The translations under genes and the position numbers were made by a program. DNA of 64,000 nt from the IMG/VR virus record IMGVR_UViG_3300018421_000013, positions 42,334 to 106,333 of that record, one strand, 5' to 3'. Positions within the stretch are counted from its first letter, which is position 1; each line of letters starts with the position of its first letter. The notes under the pieces are model-generated. The model made no database searches. It had not been told where the DNA came from and saw only the letters and a program-made list of their open reading frames with translations. Source of the DNA: a virus. This document shows positions 3,001-52,709 of the stretch, one piece after another.

Positions 3001-4096
3001 GTTGTACGTTTAAAAAATATCCTTTTTGGTATATAATACCCTCTGTAATTTCCATAGCATAACCGACACCGACTGGATCAGTAAATTCATTAGTAGCTAC
3101 AGTAACTTTTGTCAAAAACGCATTGGGAGTTAGATCTAAAGCATTGACTTGATCTGTTGATGCTTGTGTTGTTGAAATTGTTACATATGGATCAATATAA
3201 TATCCAATACCAGCAGCTTGCATATTAATATTATTGATAACGCCTACAGAAGATGTATTAACAGATGCTACTGCGCCTCCGCCAACAAAATCCATAAGTA
3301 CAGCTTCGTTACTAGTAGTTCCACCGGTAATATTAAAGGTTCTAGAAAAAGACCAACTAGAATTATTTGCTAAAATTAATTGACTGGTAAGTGGTTTTAA
3401 TCTTAACACCACAGCTTCTGTATTAGAAGAAGTATCAATTGCAGTAATTTCTGCTTGAGCGCCAGTGGTTGATTGGGTAATAGTTTCTCCTACTTGGAAT
3501 GTACCATTAGAAAATTCTAATCCACCTGAGGTATTTTGTACTTCAATAGCTGATAGAATAACGACACTATCCGTATTAAGAAATCCTTGGGAACCATTAG
3601 CAACATCAATAGAATATAGTCTTAAATCTTCATTATATATCGTTAATAAGTTACCATTTGAAAACTCAGGAGTAGTGCCATCAAGACCACTATTAAGATA
3701 ATTTAAATATAAAGTATTGAGATTTGGATTTTGTGATTCAAATCCAGACTCAGACTTAATTACTCTAGCCACAAGATTAGTAGATGGTTGTACAGCTAAT
3801 AAACCTAAATACCGATCAACGTCAACAGCGCCACCAGTATATGTTGTATCTTTAATTTTAATATAAGGAACAGCATAGTGAAAAGTTGCATCGCATCCTT
3901 CTAATAAAGCTCCTCTATTAATAACATGATCACCAAACTTAGTAATTTGTTCTTGCAGAACACTTTGTAATTGGTTAAGTTCTCTTACTTGTACAGCAGC
4001 GCCTGGTCTAAATAAAATTTTATAATAATCTTTTGCATGCGCTGTTTCTGCGTCGTCAAAGTATGGGGATGCTTGTAAATCTGTTTGAATTGACAT
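1..4096 (-). CDS. DUF4815-type virion structural protein, 3' end outside window
   Basis: A continuous reading frame of more than 1365 codons starts at the ATG at 4096 and runs off the left edge. The N-terminus (MSIQTDLQASPYFDDAE, then FRPGAAVQVRELNQLQ and a GDHVINRGALLEG stretch) matches the start of the large DUF4815-type structural proteins that lie beside the baseplate genes of marine T4-like phages. The body is Ser/Thr/Asn-rich beta-type sequence. Near the window edge (minus-strand codons around 300-190) there is a proline-rich hinge with several PPP runs and a TRERP core, followed by another beta-like segment. It lies just downstream of gp8 with a 5-bp gap, so it is probably a baseplate-attached or fibre-like component expressed late. 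The family call rests on remembered similarity. Exact role unknown. Confidence 0.75.
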   Translation of the reverse strand, partial: MSIQTDLQASPYFDDAETAHAKDYYKILFRPGAAVQVRELNQLQSVLQEQITKFGDHVINRGALLEGCDATFHYAVPYIKIKDTTYTGGAVDVDRYLGLLAVQPSTNLVARVIKSESGFESQNPNLNTLYLNYLNSGLDGTTPEFSNGNLLTIYNEDLRLYSIDVANGSQGFLNTDSVVILSAIEVQNTSGGLEFSNGTFQVGETITQSTTGAQAEITAIDTSSNTEAVVLRLKPLTSQLILANNSSWSFSRTFNITGGTTSNEAVLMDFVGGGAVASVNTSSVGVINNINMQAAGIGYYIDPYVTISTTQASTDQVNALDLTPNAFLTKVTVATNEFTDPVGVGYAMEITEGIIYQKGYFLNVQPQWHIVEKYANTPSNVSAGFTTIEYVANSSVDNSLYDNAAGYLNENAPGAHRLSLTPVLTIKTDSEAEEDSEYYPVWKFSEGKVTQTRDRSELAAVGDIMAERTFEESGNYFLDVFNITTKSPTSMADSENVFNYVIDPGQAYVSGYRIKTDRNTTLEISKSKDIVTYSNTAIDFNYGNYVRVNEYAGHLSFTEGDQVDLKSSVQNALSVRAGTIPNIGSTIGKARVRSVVWERGGDLGNPGAVFRIYLFDIKMNAGKSFDNVKAIRTSTSTADLILESKPGSGGGTSVAKLYGVANNALMYNTQLPLVETTNITYKYKTEETGIIVDTLSQFSVAADAGAAWPYVGSLTTAEKREIIITPETDLIISDSISGTYSSDSSGTLTGLSTQFTSELTDGDYLKLTDGGSNTAIIRVRSILNNTSFKFQPTAALADIDASATFERILPANVPIEFSTRANRTATVNGNNLDIDLGESLTSGVGTTSIIFNQKITLTNPTSKTVNRKVYVKIDVSSNAAGTSGPWCLGIPDIFRLRAVYDGSTTSDTNITNYFYVNHNHKTNYADVGYLHLKKNPKWTVGASDVYLIELDCFTTSSEGLKTISSYSLDDTKTLSELDTDGTVINTLEIPEITGPEGNYYDLREVLDFRPITSATTTYQTDPALAPTNPSAVTESTRFAATDKRFPVPEGDITLSYTYYDSRDDSIILNTDGTFDILEGEKLRQARQADEFLLYTADIPPYPSLPERLSENMTEILAVNVYNETIQTGRLERYTITTEASSMQTPGYSMDEIKSLENRIAALEYYVSLSDNETKVKNKVLSSSVDPTLERYKFGFFTDEFIDASMTNVDDPAQNSSIYDYRLRPSKNPLEVAFRPANNGSTNSDGKKIKFKYNVVNIVSQKSSTDGPVIVVPPPPPVVPPTRERPVPPPVIPPPPVVVEEVETKCVAIKNKNNTNGPGLNGEESIFPSDSYTFTLSSNSAANGQICTIFFDVYNGADRFEVKQGS

Positions 4097-4101
4097 TTAT
4101 T

Positions 4102-6231
4102 TTAGAACTCCAAAATTACTCTTATTTCTTCAGATTGATTTGAATCTCTAGAAACCGGTACATCGTTTTGTAAAAAGACTATAGCTCCACTAGTAGGATC
4201 TAAATCTCCATTGTATTTAGTAAAAGGCGCTGATAAAATCGCAGAAGATTCATCTCCAATAATATTTACGCCGGTACTAATATTTCCAGATACTCTTGTC
4301 AGTGTTAAATGCGTAGAATTTGCTGAATGTACATACGCTGTAGCAGATGAATTTTCAACAGAAGATCCTTGATAAACTATTTCATTTGCTAAAAATGTTC
4401 CACTAGAAACTGCGCCTACACAGCGAGTCATCTGATTAAAAGTAGAAAAATTATATTGACTATTTGCCGTAGCATATCTTTCATTAATATCAATGCCAGA
4501 TGGTTTTGCTACTGCTCCAGAAGATAGACCAATCATATATTCGCCTATTTCTAATTTTCCTTTTACTGCATCTAAATAAAAACTATTGCTTCCAATTTTT
4601 TGTCTAATTTTTGAAATGCAAATCCTATTCGCAATATAAACGTCTGTTGTAGAAGAAGTCCACGGAGGTGCATCAAATAATGTTATAGTATCCTCAGCTG
4701 AAGCACTATTAACTTCTGATATATGATGGTAATTTCCTATCGTATCATTCAAATAGATATAATCTCCAGTTTTAATATATTCATCGTACGCAGTTCCTGC
4801 TAGATTCGCAGTAATAGTAACGTTTCCACCAATAGTAGTAACTTGTGAATAAAGTCTAATCTTTTTAAACTGAACTACAGTTTCATTTAAAGAAAATTCT
4901 CCATCAGAACCATCACTATCATCTGAAGCTTTAACGAAATGTACTTCAACATTAGCAAATACAGGATCTCGAATAATACCAAATTGTCCAAACGTATTTG
5001 TTGCTTCTACTGTACCATCTTCATCTTTATTAAATAGGGTATATATACCTAAAGCTTTTCCTCCAAGTTCAATCGCGCTATTTGCACCATGCCCTCCCGG
5101 TGGAGGAATGATAGGTCTTATTGTTGATGCTGTTGGAACTACAATATCACCAGCAGATCCTGCAGGTCCACCATTAGCAGCGGCAGGTCCACCCGTTAAT
5201 ACTTCAGCTGTTGCATAATTATAATTTTCTCCAACATCCAATATTTCTACTTTGTATATACTATTTGACGCTGCATTATTAATTAAGGCTCTTGCTATAG
5301 CATTGCTAGATTGAGTGCCATCTGAAACAATTTTAATCTCAGGACTTAATTCATATCTAGTAGAAGAATCTGGAGTAATTGTAAAAGTGTTTGCAACCTG
5401 TACAATCACACCAACACCTTCTAGAAGAAAAGAATCTGTTATCCTTGACCACTGTCCCGCCCCAGTTCCACTTAATAAATGTATAATAGTATTACCATAA
5501 AATCCATCTGCTGTGCCTGAACCATCTGGTAATTTATAAAGAAAAGTATTACTTTGAACTTTAACATCACTTAAAGTAAATTGTCCAGATACAAAATTAT
5601 TATAATTCTTTCCACCATTTTCTACTAATATTACATCTAATGATCCATCAACTGCATTAGCTTCAACTACAGTATTAGCAACAACGGGAATAAAATTTTG
5701 AGTTGCAAAATTAGAAAATGTTAAAGAGTCTATGCTATACATATACTTCCATTGATATCCATCGGAAGTTTCATAATAATCGTCGCCTGTAGTATATAAA
5801 GCAGCATCATATACTACATCGCCAAAAGTTGGTTGAATTGTAGATGCTGCGTTATTTGCATTATATAAGCATTTATAAACGTGCTTATAAGAACTTTCAT
5901 CAACAACAACGTAGAAAGGTTTATCATAAAGATCTGGATCATCGTCATCAAACGAAACATATGTATTACCAGCTTGCCAATCGTAGCGAGGAATCATAAC
6001 TCGCATATCACTTTGATTTAATCTTTTCCCAAATATCATATTTCTATACGTGTCAATATTTAAATCTTGTCCACTTCTTGAGGGAGCAACAACATCATCT
6101 TCAGTAACACCACTGGCCACATGATCACCAATAAAAGAGTAATACGTAGTATTGGCTGGCTCTGAAATAGATTCAACCATTTGCGTAATAAGATGCGTTT
6201 TAAATTCTCTTGGTACTATTCTTTTTGACAT
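4102..6231 (-). CDS. 8: Baseplate wedge protein gp8
   Basis: The 709-aa product begins MSKRIVPREFKTHLITQMVE and continues with a segment around residues 85-180 (RYDWQAGNTYVSFDD, then KPFYVVVDESSYKHVYKCL and DGYQWKYMYSI) that is characteristic of the gp8 wedge proteins of marine T4-like phages. T4 gp8 itself is only about half this length; the extra length is a long beta-rich C-terminal part. The wedge protein bridges gp7, gp6 and gp10 in the T4 baseplate. A consensus late promoter lies 26 nt before the start. The gene follows gp7 in the order gp25-gp6-gp7-gp8. Confidence 0.85.
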   Translation of the reverse strand: MSKRIVPREFKTHLITQMVESISEPANTTYYSFIGDHVASGVTEDDVVAPSRSGQDLNIDTYRNMIFGKRLNQSDMRVMIPRYDWQAGNTYVSFDDDDPDLYDKPFYVVVDESSYKHVYKCLYNANNAASTIQPTFGDVVYDAALYTTGDDYYETSDGYQWKYMYSIDSLTFSNFATQNFIPVVANTVVEANAVDGSLDVILVENGGKNYNNFVSGQFTLSDVKVQSNTFLYKLPDGSGTADGFYGNTIIHLLSGTGAGQWSRITDSFLLEGVGVIVQVANTFTITPDSSTRYELSPEIKIVSDGTQSSNAIARALINNAASNSIYKVEILDVGENYNYATAEVLTGGPAAANGGPAGSAGDIVVPTASTIRPIIPPPGGHGANSAIELGGKALGIYTLFNKDEDGTVEATNTFGQFGIIRDPVFANVEVHFVKASDDSDGSDGEFSLNETVVQFKKIRLYSQVTTIGGNVTITANLAGTAYDEYIKTGDYIYLNDTIGNYHHISEVNSASAEDTITLFDAPPWTSSTTDVYIANRICISKIRQKIGSNSFYLDAVKGKLEIGEYMIGLSSGAVAKPSGIDINERYATANSQYNFSTFNQMTRCVGAVSSGTFLANEIVYQGSSVENSSATAYVHSANSTHLTLTRVSGNISTGVNIIGDESSAILSAPFTKYNGDLDPTSGAIVFLQNDVPVSRDSNQSEEIRVILEF

Positions 6232-47591: not shown

Positions 47592-48029
47592 TTATTTCAC
47601 CTGTGTTGTTTTGTTTTTAGTTTGAGCGTCTTGTAATCGTGCTGAATCCAACATACGATCGTGTCGACGCTTATCATTTTTTAGTTCACGAGAAATTCGA
47701 ACTTTAGCTCTTTTTTCTGCTTCCCCTTCATTCATTACTGCCTCACCATAAAAAGCAGACTTCACTGCTCTATGAACCAACATCTTAGCTTTCTTTTCAT
47801 CGGCACTATGAGACTTCATTACCATTTGAATAGCCTGATCCATATTCTGAGCAGAACCAATTACTCTAAGAATTTTTTCATTTTGGGCAGATCTTTTCTT
47901 ACCTTCATTTATTTTAGATTTTTTCTTTTTATCAGGATGTCCTTTTCCACCATCTGCTTTCGCAGCATGGACAGCTTTTCTTTGGGCATCTGATACATAA
48001 CCTTCTACAAATTCGTTAAAAGTTTTCAT
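47592..48029 (-). CDS. Basic internal head-like protein with IP-type N-terminus
   Basis: The 145-aa protein starts MKTFNEFVEGYVSDAQRKAV. Compared with the T4 internal proteins (MKTYQEFIAEA), the Met-Lys-Thr-aromatic-x-Glu-Phe-hydrophobic-Glu pattern is retained; in T4 it targets proteins to the prohead and is cut by gp21 after Glu. The rest is Lys/Arg/Ala/Gln-rich helix. It is coupled to the nucleotidyltransferase gene (48029 shared base). Confidence 0.65.
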   Translation of the reverse strand: MKTFNEFVEGYVSDAQRKAVHAAKADGGKGHPDKKKKSKINEGKKRSAQNEKILRVIGSAQNMDQAIQMVMKSHSADEKKAKMLVHRAVKSAFYGEAVMNEGEAEKRAKVRISRELKNDKRRHDRMLDSARLQDAQTKNKTTQVK

Positions 48030-49579
48030 TAGTTACAATTCCATCTCTTTAGTGACATAGCCTTACGTGTCGGCCTACCCTTTTCATCTTTCATAGGTCC
48101 TTTCATACCACTCATACGGGCACAAAAAGACTTACGCCTTTTAGCCGCTTTACTACCAGCTTTTAATTTACTTGGCTTGGTAGTTACAGCGGTTTGCAAT
48201 TTACTACCAGGATTTTTTCTACGATAAGCATCTACGCCTTTCTTCGTTAAACCAGCACCGTCTTCAGTAGGTCTCTTGTGACCCTTTGAATCATCTCCTC
48301 TTTTATTTGGCTTATCATCTTCACTAATAGCTAATTCATAATTCAGATTATTGAAAGCGTATTGTTCTTCGTCTAAATGCGTATTCGTAGGATCCCATTC
48401 TTTTTTATAATTAATATAGATGTCTCTGATATCTTCATATGCAATGTTATACTTATCAGCTTTTTTACGAAGATTTTTTTCTACATTTTGACTAATAGTT
48501 TTAATGTGTAATTCATTTACCATCGACATTAAAGCATCATAATCTAAACTTTCTTTTTTAGGACCATCAGTTACTCTAGAAACTTTTCCTTTACCACCTT
48601 TAGCTTTACGTAATCTTTCTACTTCTGCTTTACGAACTTTTGGTAATAATCTTTTTGCTAGTCTTCCAATCAATGCTTTTTTCTTTTCAACCTTTTTGTC
48701 TACTTCTATCCTTGCACTGATTGGTAAGTTTTTATAATTAGCACCACGAGAGCCTGCTAGTTTAGCTCTTAAAATATCTCGTGCTTTTCTTCTTGATCTA
48801 GTTTGTAGTTTTTCGGGGCGGGCCATGCGAGTTTTCGCAATACGTCGACCGCGCTTAATTTTGCCGGCAATACGACGCATAATAATTTTTTTCTTCATTC
48901 TTTGCTGCAATGTTAAAGTTTCATCTAAAGATAATTCTTCAGAAATACCCATTGCTGATCTAATCTTATTATACATTTCTTTTGATTCTTGATTTGACAT
49001 TTTCCTAGGTAATCCTTTCTTATACTCAGAGAATTGACCAGAGACAGCTAATTGTCTAAGCTTAGACGCTGACATACCTGATACATCATCTGCATCAGGA
49101 TCTCGTTCTCCAGCTGAAACAACCTTAATAGACTTAAATTTAAAATCTTTATTATTATATTTATTTACAATTCTGGTAAACTCTGTAACTCTATCGCTTC
49201 CAACAACAATAGTAACATTATCAAAAGTGTTTTGTATTTCTTTTAAAACGTCAAATATTGTTTTAGAATTAGAACGCTTTACAATATCACCAAAAGCTTT
49301 TTGTGTATATTTAAGCTTATCGTTATATGATAAAGGATTCTTTTTCTTATCTTGAGAATGGGATAGATATAAATGAGGTTGCGCTTTCTTTGAACGCGCT
49401 ATTGATGTTATCTTATCAACTAATTTTTGATGTCCAATTGTAGGAGGATTCATTCTTCCAAACGAAAGGACTACGGCAGACCCGATTTCTTCGGATATCA
49501 ACGAAGTGTCGGTTTTGACATCTGTGATGGTACGCCCTTGACCATCAGTTTGAGGAGTAATTATCTTTTTTTCTTTCAT
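48029..49579 (-). CDS. Nucleotidyltransferase fused to basic DUF6321-like domain
   Basis: The 516-aa product has an N-terminal nucleotidyltransferase at about residues 33-205: VVLSFGRMNPPTIGHQKLVD holds the T/HxGH nucleotide site and SGMSASKLRQLAVSGQF resembles the ISxxxLR motif; GSDRVTEFTR lies between. A long Lys/Arg-rich middle follows (residues about 225-345). The C-terminus (GLTKKGVDAYRRKNPGSKLQ, RKSFCARMSGMKGPMKDEKG, RPTRKAMSLKRWNC) matches the DUF6321-type end seen in marine phage proteins. Adenylyl or cytidylyl transfer is likely; the substrate (for example a nicotinamide nucleotide) is unknown. Confidence 0.75.
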   Translation of the reverse strand: MKEKKIITPQTDGQGRTITDVKTDTSLISEEIGSAVVLSFGRMNPPTIGHQKLVDKITSIARSKKAQPHLYLSHSQDKKKNPLSYNDKLKYTQKAFGDIVKRSNSKTIFDVLKEIQNTFDNVTIVVGSDRVTEFTRIVNKYNNKDFKFKSIKVVSAGERDPDADDVSGMSASKLRQLAVSGQFSEYKKGLPRKMSNQESKEMYNKIRSAMGISEELSLDETLTLQQRMKKKIIMRRIAGKIKRGRRIAKTRMARPEKLQTRSRRKARDILRAKLAGSRGANYKNLPISARIEVDKKVEKKKALIGRLAKRLLPKVRKAEVERLRKAKGGKGKVSRVTDGPKKESLDYDALMSMVNELHIKTISQNVEKNLRKKADKYNIAYEDIRDIYINYKKEWDPTNTHLDEEQYAFNNLNYELAISEDDKPNKRGDDSKGHKRPTEDGAGLTKKGVDAYRRKNPGSKLQTAVTTKPSKLKAGSKAAKRRKSFCARMSGMKGPMKDEKGRPTRKAMSLKRWNCN

Positions 49580-49654: not shown

Positions 49655-50434
49655 TCAAATTTTGTATTTTAAGAATTCATCATAATCGGTTATTAAGTTA
49701 TAACCAATAAGTTCTTTTATAAAATGTGGATTTAAAATAGAATTTATTTTTTCTATAACATGCCAATCTAATTTAATTTTAAAGTTAGCATAATAATCTC
49801 TTCTTTCTTGAGTAAAATCATTTGATTGACTTACTTTACCAGGTATGCTAATTTCGTCCATTGGTCTTTCGTAACGTACACCCCAATGCGGCAATGCTTT
49901 TGACAAAAAACTATGCGCGCCATATTTCGTATTAGTAATTATATCTTCGTATTTAAATGTTTGTATGTTTTTACGTTGCGAAAATTCCCACCACCATATA
50001 GTGTGTTCTTGCCATAATCTAATAGCTTCCGCTATGTTAATATCATTTCTCGAAAATAAATTCCATTCATCTTGGTTTTGTTTATTTTTCCTAGTGACTC
50101 TAGGATATGTTTTTTTGATATCGACTTGCTTATCAGTTATACTATAAGCCCAAGCATAAGGATGCTTAACTAGATGTAATACTTTTAATTCACCACTATC
50201 TATTTTATCTACTAACTTTTGGAAACTAAAATCTACGTTACTGGGATTGGGTCCAGGTATTCCATTTGGACTATCTAATGCCCAAGCGTGTTTCCAAAAT
50301 CCACCATTTCTATATGTATTTCTACAATTGCCATTATAACCGCCAGTTAAGTTTTGCTTAATTAATGCTTCAACAAAATTAGTACCACTTCGTTGAATGC
50401 CTGCAACGACAAACGCAACTTCTTCTTTTGCCAT
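49655..50434 (-). CDS. Sulfotransferase family protein
   Basis: From the ATG at 50434 (GGGA site 7 nt before) the 259-aa product opens with a PAPS-type P-loop, VVAGIQRSGTNFVEALIKQN. It continues with VLHLVKHPYAWAYSITDKQ, equivalent to the 3'-phosphate loop, and TFKYEDIITN, usual for the C-terminal part of the fold. These fit cytosolic/phage sulfotransferases that use PAPS. Target unknown. A longer frame to 50458 would overlap the upstream gene. Confidence 0.8.
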   Translation of the reverse strand: MAKEEVAFVVAGIQRSGTNFVEALIKQNLTGGYNGNCRNTYRNGGFWKHAWALDSPNGIPGPNPSNVDFSFQKLVDKIDSGELKVLHLVKHPYAWAYSITDKQVDIKKTYPRVTRKNKQNQDEWNLFSRNDINIAEAIRLWQEHTIWWWEFSQRKNIQTFKYEDIITNTKYGAHSFLSKALPHWGVRYERPMDEISIPGKVSQSNDFTQERRDYYANFKIKLDWHVIEKINSILNPHFIKELIGYNLITDYDEFLKYKI

Positions 50435-50445
50435 TCTATTCCCTA

Positions 50446-51675
50446 CTACTTTTCCCAACCCTTAATCACCTCAGGTGAAAAGTTAGCGTAGGAAAATTCC
50501 ATTCTATCTACTATCTTCACCGCATCATTTGTAAGATGATCTATAGCAACAAATCCTTCTTGATTAGTAACTTTAAATCCTTTGCGCGTTTTAAGAAAAG
50601 TACCAATGTTACTAGCATGATTCATTTTATCTACGATCAATTGTTTAGCGTCTACCAATAGATTCATCAATTCAAAGATTAATTGTATTTGAGACGCATT
50701 ATATTTAGTAAATACCGATAATGCTTGTTTTTGTTTTTCTGCAATCTTATCTTTAGCAGCCTGTGTTTTTCTCTTAGACATTTCTTTTTTATAATAATCT
50801 ATAATATAATTACTTAAAAGACGAGCATGAGTTTTAGGATTAATTTTTTTCTGTTGCCTAACAAACGTATTATTAAATGTTTTTGTACGCATATGTAATT
50901 CTTCATTTGTACTAAACTCATTTAATAATGCAGCAGGAATTTTATTAAATATGCGGCCGGCCTGAGATAAAATTGAAGTTACTTGATTTGTTTCAGCTAC
51001 CGTGAATGTAGCATTGCCAGAAAGATCTTGATAAGTGGCATCCATCTGCCAAATTTTAGGAGATTGTTTAAACTTACTTGTAATGTTTTTTGCAAATGCA
51101 GCAGACATTGTTTCAAAAGATTTGCCAGTATATGTAGTATGCCAAACAATTCCTATATCAGCAGCTAATAATTGACGTGCTGCAGGCGTTCCCGCGGGAA
51201 TCGCATACATGATAGTATTAGGTTGGAACGTAATATAATTTACGCCATCAATTTTAGTTTTACTAAGATCACCTTTGGTAAACATCAAGTCGCCTTGATA
51301 AACTCCAGACTTAACGCCTAAAGTAGAAAAGCTATTGAACGCTTGTATTAGTTTTGCCTGAAGATCTCCAGAAGTATCTGCTTTAACGTCTTCAACACTT
51401 TTATAAACTTTAGGATTCTTATTGAATACGCCTTTTTTAGCAACAAAGAATTTTCCGTCCGAAGGATCCACACCGACGAATACAGCGGGTGCACCATCCC
51501 ACTTGACAGTGCGTGATATTTGAGTCCTAGAATGACCGGCCAACATATCTCGTAAATCACGTAAAAAATTAATCGCTTTTCTAGTTCCATTAACTCCTTC
51601 ATTGAAGATTAGATCTTCAACATGTTCCATGTGAGTATTTTTAGCTTCGATAAGATATGAATTAAATTTTAACAT
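50446..51675 (-). CDS. RNA ligase/nucleotidyltransferase-like DUF6267 protein
   Basis: The 409-aa product begins MLKFNSYLIEAKNTHMEHVE. NEGVNGTRKAINFLRDLRDM, RTVKWDGAPAVFVGVDPSDG and FFVAKKGVFNKNPKVYKSVE follow the DUF6267 pattern of marine T4-like phages. K-W-DG-A-P is a KxDG ligase motif I at about residue 59, and VYQGDLMF could be motif III. The start MLKFNSYLIEA parallels the T4 internal-protein signal MKTYQEFIAEA, with LIE before the expected gp21 cut. The start codon lies only 6 nt downstream of a -10 hexamer. Confidence 0.75.
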   Translation of the reverse strand: MLKFNSYLIEAKNTHMEHVEDLIFNEGVNGTRKAINFLRDLRDMLAGHSRTQISRTVKWDGAPAVFVGVDPSDGKFFVAKKGVFNKNPKVYKSVEDVKADTSGDLQAKLIQAFNSFSTLGVKSGVYQGDLMFTKGDLSKTKIDGVNYITFQPNTIMYAIPAGTPAARQLLAADIGIVWHTTYTGKSFETMSAAFAKNITSKFKQSPKIWQMDATYQDLSGNATFTVAETNQVTSILSQAGRIFNKIPAALLNEFSTNEELHMRTKTFNNTFVRQQKKINPKTHARLLSNYIIDYYKKEMSKRKTQAAKDKIAEKQKQALSVFTKYNASQIQLIFELMNLLVDAKQLIVDKMNHASNIGTFLKTRKGFKVTNQEGFVAIDHLTNDAVKIVDRMEFSYANFSPEVIKGWEK

Positions 51676-51752: not shown

Positions 51753-52709
51753 TTATATACTTTGTGTCGTTCCGACAATTTTTCCAGCTGGAAATACACC
51801 AATCCTTGCATTTCCTACAAACAATCCAGCGACACGTGCCCCTCGGTCACTCGTATATCTAGCAAAATAAATACATTCATATCCACCGCTTTTAGGTATA
51901 TCCCCGTTCTTTCCTTTATGATTAGATTTTATTTCGTAAACTTTACCACTCTTTTTTAGAGTCATACTTCCCTGGTGGAATTCATCGACATTTTCAATTC
52001 CGCGGGCTGCACCATAATTAACACCATAAATTGATTTAGTAATAATAGAATTATCTTTTACTAATCTCGCAACCGAACTTTTTGGGGGTAAACCATTAGG
52101 AAATTTTTTAGCGCAATCCTTCATAAATTTCTTAACTTCAGTACTACTATTAAATGTAGAGTCTGATAATCCACCATATTGTTGAAAATCACTTGGCTTT
52201 CTTCCAGCTTTGTGTGATAACCAACCAGTTTGATTACCATCGACATCAACAATACTAAAATCAGATTTTGGTGCTCGTCTACCAGTTTGAGGCGTACTTA
52301 TAATTCCTGCGCAATTTATAATTCTTCCACCACATCTTAATCTTATACTAGATGTTTTTTCAATTTCAAATACGGCGTTTAATTTACCTTTAAATTCAGT
52401 TAAATAAAAATCTTCTGCCGCTGTGCCTGAACCAGCGCCTTTGCCACCAAATTCTGGTGTTTTAAAAAATTCTTTTGGATATTCAACAACAACTGGTCCT
52501 CCACCAACTACTTTACCTTTAAACGAACCGCTGTAACCAGGAATATCCATTGCAGCATATAAACCATCAAATTGTTTTTTATCAAAGATAACGCTACCTT
52601 TAGCTGTAAAAAACTCAGTACCGTCTTTAATTTTTGCTACAAAAATTTTTAATCTTTCGCCGCCACGTTTACGCAAATCATTGTGTTGTAAAACTTTATA
52701 TTCGGCCAT
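51753..52709 (-). CDS. Late protein with nuclease-like PD-(D/E)XK pattern, unassigned
   Basis: The 318-aa product contains DFYLTEFKGKLNAVFEIEKT, then RRAPKSDFSIVDVDGNQTGW, LSHKAGRKPSDFQQYGGLSD. The E...PKSDF...SHK order resembles the core of PD-(D/E)XK nucleases, with H replacing the usual E/Q. A later GMTLKKSGKVYEIKS-type strand and GLFVGNARIGVFPAGKIVG end it. I recall related proteins from large marine phages, without a function. It has a perfect late promoter, so it is made late and may be virion-borne. Confidence 0.55.
   Translation of the reverse strand: MAEYKVLQHNDLRKRGGERLKIFVAKIKDGTEFFTAKGSVIFDKKQFDGLYAAMDIPGYSGSFKGKVVGGGPVVVEYPKEFFKTPEFGGKGAGSGTAAEDFYLTEFKGKLNAVFEIEKTSSIRLRCGGRIINCAGIISTPQTGRRAPKSDFSIVDVDGNQTGWLSHKAGRKPSDFQQYGGLSDSTFNSSTEVKKFMKDCAKKFPNGLPPKSSVARLVKDNSIITKSIYGVNYGAARGIENVDEFHQGSMTLKKSGKVYEIKSNHKGKNGDIPKSGGYECIYFARYTSDRGARVAGLFVGNARIGVFPAGKIVGTTQSI

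Follow-up and report, generated by a model that had tools for sequence, protein, structure and literature searches.

A DUF6267 gene at a T4-like replication locus

The window analysed here is a stretch of 64,000 nucleotides that forms part of a 106-kb virus record. Its baseplate, gp43, UvsX, gp41, primase, NrdA/B and gp32 genes identify it as a T4-like myovirus. An earlier note, made from the sequence alone, had singled out an ORF on the minus strand, which lies within the gp43-uvsX-gp41 region. This ORF is real, and its product matches DUF6267 (PF19782) over its full length (Pfam E 4.5e-104; 349 bits against a gathering cut-off of 27). The protein is likewise a full-length member of phrog_455 and belongs to the cyanophage T4-like gene cluster 71 (T4-GC 71). 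The features considered below are these:

48029-49579, minus strand: NMNAT-like "cytidyltransferase" (GRMNPPTIGH, SASKLR) with C-terminal DUF6321; partner by adjacency and fusion
50446-51675, minus strand: DUF6267 / phrog_455 / T4-GC 71 ORF, 409 aa, ATG start; predicted covalent (lysyl) nucleotidyltransferase of RNA-ligase-type fold
50503-50520, minus strand: motif V, VKIVDR, residues 386-391; K387 and R391 invariant, no KxK (motif, Rnl2 alignment)
50548-50559, minus strand: motif IV, EGFV, residues 373-376 (motif, conservation)
50620-51000, minus strand: helical insert between motifs III and IV, residues 226-352 (model; shorter in syn9-type relatives)
51289-51297, minus strand: motif III, QGD, residues 127-129, with D129 where ligases carry E (motif, conservation)
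51433-51435, minus strand: K81 in (K/T)K(G/S)VFNK, invariant in 66/66 relatives; putatively in the place of T4 Rnl2 R55 (AKRTGPI) by motif order
51493-51504, minus strand: motif I, KWDG, residues 58-61; K58 is the predicted nucleotidyl-lysine (motif, conservation)
51646-51675, minus strand: residues 1-10, MLKFNSYLIE, T4-type capsid-targeting-like N-terminus (pattern; predicted disordered, pLDDT 36)
51753-52709, minus strand: upstream ORF, 318 aa, phrog_13937, with the PD-(D/E)XK-like signature KSDFSIVDVDGNQTGWLSHK (pattern)

A tblastn search of 50,697 phage records found relatives in about 470. Nearly all of the carriers are T4-like cyanophages, the others including phages of Pelagibacter, Methylophilales, Stenotrophomonas, Vibrio and Pseudoalteromonas. 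Sorted by name, the matching records comprise 371 Synechococcus, 61 Cyanophage and 24 Prochlorococcus entries; the corresponding figures for UvsX are 375 Synechococcus and 61 Cyanophage. The gene is near-universal in sequenced T4-like cyanophages. The family has been annotated as hypothetical, with no function described. Neither DUF6267 nor PF19782 is mentioned in the literature searched, and the passages retrieved from surveys of NAD networks (PMC9503650) and of polyvalent proteins (PMC5512222) do not name it. Promoter and terminator scans gave results at chance level.

Active-site motifs and predicted fold

The earlier note had recognised in this protein a Lys-x-Asp-Gly site of the DNA/RNA ligase and capping-enzyme superfamily, with YQGDLMF as possible motif III. 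Both assignments are supported. In window-protein numbering, which is used throughout, KWDG occupies residues 58-61, and its KxDG is kept in all 66 relatives less than 70% identical; YQGDLMF spans residues 126-132, with D129 invariant in the same 66. A second KxDG in the window protein (KIDG, 141) is not conserved. The strongest support for a ligase-type site comes from motifs IV and V, which had been overlooked; together with motif III they follow motif I in the expected order, motif III having D, motif IV EG and motif V a single K. The residues identical in 66/66 relatives are K58, D60, G61, K81, D129, N153, Y157, H179, T180, E373, G374, V376, K387, R391, F394 and N398. In an alignment of 67 relatives the KWDG, QGD and EG motifs and K387/R391 were scored as invariant, W59 being replaced by Y, I or M among the 66, and the motif residues are retained down to 24-29% identity. 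Taken alone, KxDG is a weak signal: it turns up in 11.8% of shuffles of the window protein, and 148 of 1312 other ORFs with at least 250 aa contain it too. The ordered pattern KxDG - [GA][DE] - EGxV - K, composed after the family had been viewed, is present in 465 of 481 family members, as against 3 of the 1312 other ORFs and a fraction of 0.0004 of shuffles.

Sequence comparison by itself does not reach the ligases. No link was returned by Pfam, NCBIfam, PADLOC or phmmer/hmmsearch against the PDB; alignment of the DUF6267 profile with T4 Rnl2 by hhalign gave a probability of 0.3%; and the Pfam families listed for 122 DUF6267 members include no ligase. Genome searches with PF09414 (Rnl2-type) and PF09511 (Rnl1) do not pick up DUF6267, which belongs to neither profile. 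A PDB match to bacterial STING (E 0.2) and several coiled-coil matches map to the helical insert and were dismissed as an effect of composition.

Structures were predicted with AlphaFold2 for the window protein and for a natural short form, syn9 gp183 (320 aa), chosen to drop the helical insert without altering any sequence; the alignment for the short form comprised 122 relatives. The models reached pLDDT 85.3 and pTM 0.79 for the window protein and pLDDT 92.3 and pTM 0.87 for syn9 gp183. In the former, motif I ends a strand, motifs III and V lie on strands and motif IV starts one, with a helical block at 226-352. The top VIA matches of the window model were Naegleria RNA ligase (Z 8.2; 185 residues aligned, 3.9 A), Trl1 (7.9), T4 Rnl1 (7.8) and Rnl2 (7.2), interspersed with unrelated proteins of helical structure, matched through the insert. 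With the short form, all 50 of the matches listed were RNA or DNA ligases and none had an unrelated fold; they included Naegleria Rnl (Z 8.6; 173 aligned, 3.8 A), Trl1 (7.3), Rnl2 (6.8), REL1 (6.5) and DNA ligase I (5.5). DNA ligases I, III and IV are all present among the fold matches. As the Z values are middling, the case leans on the unanimity of the ligase matches and on the motifs. Foldseek against the PDB was weak: the best E values of the two model searches were 0.028 and 0.11, the window model's best match being DNA ligase 3rr5 (E 0.028, probability 0.92). When the window model was compared with BFVD, the closest named entry that is not a family member was likewise annotated as an RNA ligase (Atu_ph07, E 1.9e-3). 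The earlier note had proposed structure prediction as the check, a fold unrelated to the nucleotidyltransferase superfamily being the outcome that would speak against it. That outcome did not occur; both models have the nucleotidyltransferase fold, of RNA-ligase type and with T4 Rnl1 and Rnl2 among the matches, and so join the motifs in bearing out membership in the superfamily.

Since VIA provides no residue pairs, the overlay of active sites relies on motif order and spacing, which is how residues were equated with T4 Rnl2 (PF09414). The Rnl2 counterparts are KIHG (K35), AKRTGPI (R55), FGEFAG (E99), EGYVLKP (E204) and VAIKCKN (K225, K227). The family resembles Rnl2, T4 Rnl1, the Naegleria enzyme and the Trl1 ligase domain in predicted catalytic fold, in the order in which motifs I, III, IV and V follow one another, in an EGYV-type motif IV and in a basic residue conserved downstream of motif I. 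It differs from all four in that no sequence similarity is detectable. It also departs from known ligases in having D for E in motif III and, in motif V, one lysine and an arginine rather than the KxK of Rnl2 (the second position being V/I); and it carries invariant, family-specific PNTxxY and HTxY sequences. The spacing between motifs III and IV is 244 in the window protein, 168 in syn9 and 105 in Rnl2. Like the ATP-dependent DNA ligases of PF01068, T4 gp30 among them, it has KxDG, an acidic motif III and an EG motif IV, but it has no match to that family. The OB domain and motif VI of ATP-dependent DNA ligases and mRNA capping enzymes are likewise missing: the window protein ends 22 residues past K387, which leaves no place for an OB or C-terminal domain, and the model shows no further domain. 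The existence of natural short forms without much of the helical insert marks the insert as an addition. As modelled, DUF6267 consists of the catalytic domain alone, interrupted by a helical insert peculiar to the family, and has neither OB nor C-terminal domain.

Capsid-targeting-like N-terminus and neighbouring genes

The T4 capsid-targeting consensus is M-x2-3-[FYLI]-x2-[FYL][ILVM]-x-E, and residues 1-10 of the window protein fit it. In T4, sequences of this kind route internal proteins to the head, from which they are injected (PMC3012670). As in the internal proteins IPI and Alt, the N-terminal pattern is followed by a disordered junction; most DUF6267 members, however, have no such tag. 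Among relatives of the window protein the tag occurs in 83 of 92 at 50% identity or more, in 20 of 228 at 30-50% and in 0 of 160 at 20-30%, typical cyanophage forms failing to fit. Controls from the same loci gave 0/234 for the DnaB-type helicase, 0/145 for MazG and 1/122 for UvsX (1/501 in total). The capsid-type N-terminus claimed by the earlier note is therefore borne out as a sequence pattern. The tag and a long helical insert are what the window's clade adds to the family at large. The earlier note had also called a ligase-type protein with a capsid-type N-terminus unusual; the combination is indeed so, but the gene, near-universal in T4-like cyanophages, is not rare.

The recurrent downstream partner of DUF6267 is the NMNAT-like "cytidyltransferase", which adjoins it in many relatives. 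In S-PM2 the two are fused in one ORF of 591 aa (LN828717; positions 3992-5767 of locus L332), annotated as hypothetical, and the phrog_455 profile also includes a DUF6267-NMNAT-like fusion. In the window a sulfotransferase-like ORF (49655-50458, minus strand; PF00685, E 2.9e-8; no PHROG match) stands between them. The capsid-targeting pattern is present in 117 of 227 NMNAT-like proteins, and NMNAT-like/cytidylyltransferase proteins have been reported from virions of S-SM1, S-SZBM1, S-SCSM1 and S-CREM2, the authors concerned also allowing for carry-over in CsCl preparations (PMC3037559, PMC9146016, PMC9602691, PMC10665884). Virions of S-SZBM1 were found to contain the cytidylyltransferase _140 as well as _139, the protein encoded next to it (PMC9146016); _140 starts with MRFRQFIIEA and so carries the tag. 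The DUF6267 protein of that phage (_141, with the untagged start MAKNTHLEH) is not listed in its virion proteome, the only one checked (PMC9146016). This lends no support to DUF6267 as a proven virion protein; it suggests that the tag may predict packaging. The literature searched yielded no virion proteome for any phage of the tagged clade. For the window's clade, which carries the tag, packaging of DUF6267 is about an even chance.

The C-terminus of the window's NMNAT-like protein is a basic DUF6321. Several PHROGs have this domain as the last part of proteins that are otherwise unlike one another, so it may serve as a common tail for virion association or DNA binding. Adjoining the NMNAT-like gene is a lysine-rich ORF of 145 aa (47592-48029, minus strand) whose start, MKTFNEFVEG, is a near match to the capsid-targeting pattern. 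Other short families at the loci examined start with perfect capsid-targeting-like sequences, such as MKKFSAFLKEAQKSFAAQ and MKKFIPFLLEE, and are by these starts candidates for packaged proteins of marine T4-like phages.

The ORF upstream of DUF6267 in the window contains KSDFSIVDVDGNQTGWLSHKAG, which forms a PD-(D/E)XK-like signature. Similar signatures are borne by unrelated-looking upstream ORFs of other carriers. With a pattern devised after examples had been viewed, 137 of 319 upstream ORFs scored, compared with 3.5% of shuffles and 44 of 1193 other ORFs; Pfam gave no support for a nuclease of this type in the upstream ORFs. The recurrence of the signature in ORFs that look unrelated suggests a nuclease - ligase - NMNAT module, of which the phrog_13937 ORF is a possible third member.

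A predicted ligase-type nucleotidyltransferase and its alternatives

The conserved motifs and the two models make it very probable that DUF6267 is an enzyme of ligase fold whose active site is intact. The overall reading of the earlier note is partly supported, the family appearing as a new, divergent one of ligase type, while the injection and the action on RNA that the note suggested are putative. The explanation that we favour, with a fair measure of doubt, is that DUF6267 comprises divergent nucleotidyltransferases of the covalent lysine type, with an RNA-ligase-type catalytic domain as their core. Starting from the observed motif conservation and the predicted fold, we infer catalysis, ligation, substrate and packaging as follows. 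K58 would most likely attack ATP (or NAD+) to give an enzyme-AMP; the AMP would be passed to a 5'-phosphate and the break, in RNA or in DNA, then sealed, as by ligases, the helical insert occupying the place of the OB/C-terminal domain of known ligases. The motifs and models make such sealing of nucleic-acid ends somewhat probable; guanylyl or protein-directed transfer may occur instead. The enzyme would act beside the NMNAT-like enzyme, as fusion and adjacency with that protein suggest; the finding of NMNAT-like proteins in cyanophage virions also speaks for the explanation. In the window's clade, the T4-type N-terminus points to probable packaging: the protein would probably enter the head, lose its N-terminus to the prohead protease, which would cut after LIE, and be injected, with a role early in infection. 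Against this explanation as a whole stand the weak Foldseek E values, the 0.3% profile probability with T4 Rnl2, D for E in motif III, a motif V without the KxK of Rnl2, and the absence of the S-SZBM1 protein from its virion list; moreover, the missing OB and C-terminal domains leave binding to nucleic acid unexplained.

Could DUF6267 instead be the replicative or repair DNA ligase of T4-like cyanophages, acting in place of gp30 beside gp41 helicase and gp61 primase, with the tag incidental? Its near-universality in cyanophages and its place in the gp43-uvsX-gp41 region fit such a role, and gp30 can be missing in T4 relatives, most often cyanophages (PMC2993671). No PF01068 or PF01653 ligase was found in 13/13 cyanophage-type carriers (Syn1, HTVC008M, Melnitz-3, C48C1, syn9, P-SSM2, ACG-2014d, S-PM2, S-SZBM1, DSL-LC02, P-HM2, Bellamy and S-CAM9) or in the incomplete window record, nor any PF09414 or PF09511 ligase in those searched with these profiles, namely nine of the thirteen and the window record. 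T4, the positive control, was detected by PF01068, PF09414 and PF09511. DUF6267 could thus stand in for gp30 in cyanophages. However, three carriers that are not cyanophages, DLP6, Vibrio 2.275.O and Pseudoalteromonas XG4, encode a gp30-type ligase (PF01068) alongside DUF6267, which weakens a simple replacement, and that simple form was rejected. In addition, the best fold matches are RNA ligases, and cyanobacterial hosts possess an NAD-dependent ligase of their own (control search), so that a phage ligase is not needed. We regard the replicative role as unlikely.

The bare catalytic domain, the PNTxxY, HTxY and R391...N398 residues that are invariant in DUF6267 and absent from Rnl2, and the constant pairing and fusion with the NMNAT-like protein would also suit a nucleotidyltransferase that uses the ligase fold without sealing, for example to cap or tag the 5' ends of RNA or DNA, or to modify proteins or NAD-linked molecules with its partner. 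Capping enzymes rank only low in the Foldseek list, though, and no RNA triphosphatase or comparable partner appears in the annotated neighbourhoods; we give this possibility little weight. A virion component that keeps the ligase fold without catalysis, in a binding or scaffold role, would account for the capsid-type tag of the window's clade and for the finding of S-SZBM1_139 and _140 in virions. Yet all catalytic motif positions stay invariant even between members that have diverged widely, with or without the tag, as one would not expect had catalysis been lost, and this makes a purely structural role very improbable.

If the favoured explanation is carried further, DUF6267 would be an unrecognised phage ligase family forming a module with the NMNAT-like enzyme and often a restriction-endonuclease-like protein. 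Some marine T4-like phages would bring this module along in the head and inject it as an NAD-linked kit for nucleic-acid repair or counter-defence. This larger picture is speculative and, taken whole, doubtful; if true, the kit would act ahead of any phage gene expression.

T4-like cyanophages rank among the most abundant ocean viruses and almost all sequenced ones have DUF6267, a hypothetical core gene for which a ligase-type identity supplies a concrete function to test. A further 36 DUF6267 loci (L247-L282) lie on contigs filed as bacterial or archaeal MAGs, apart from one Nonlabens isolate (L277, a 188-kb contig) and one Prochlorococcus single cell (L279, 189 kb); these contigs are probably of phage origin, either binned along with the host or from a phage infecting it.
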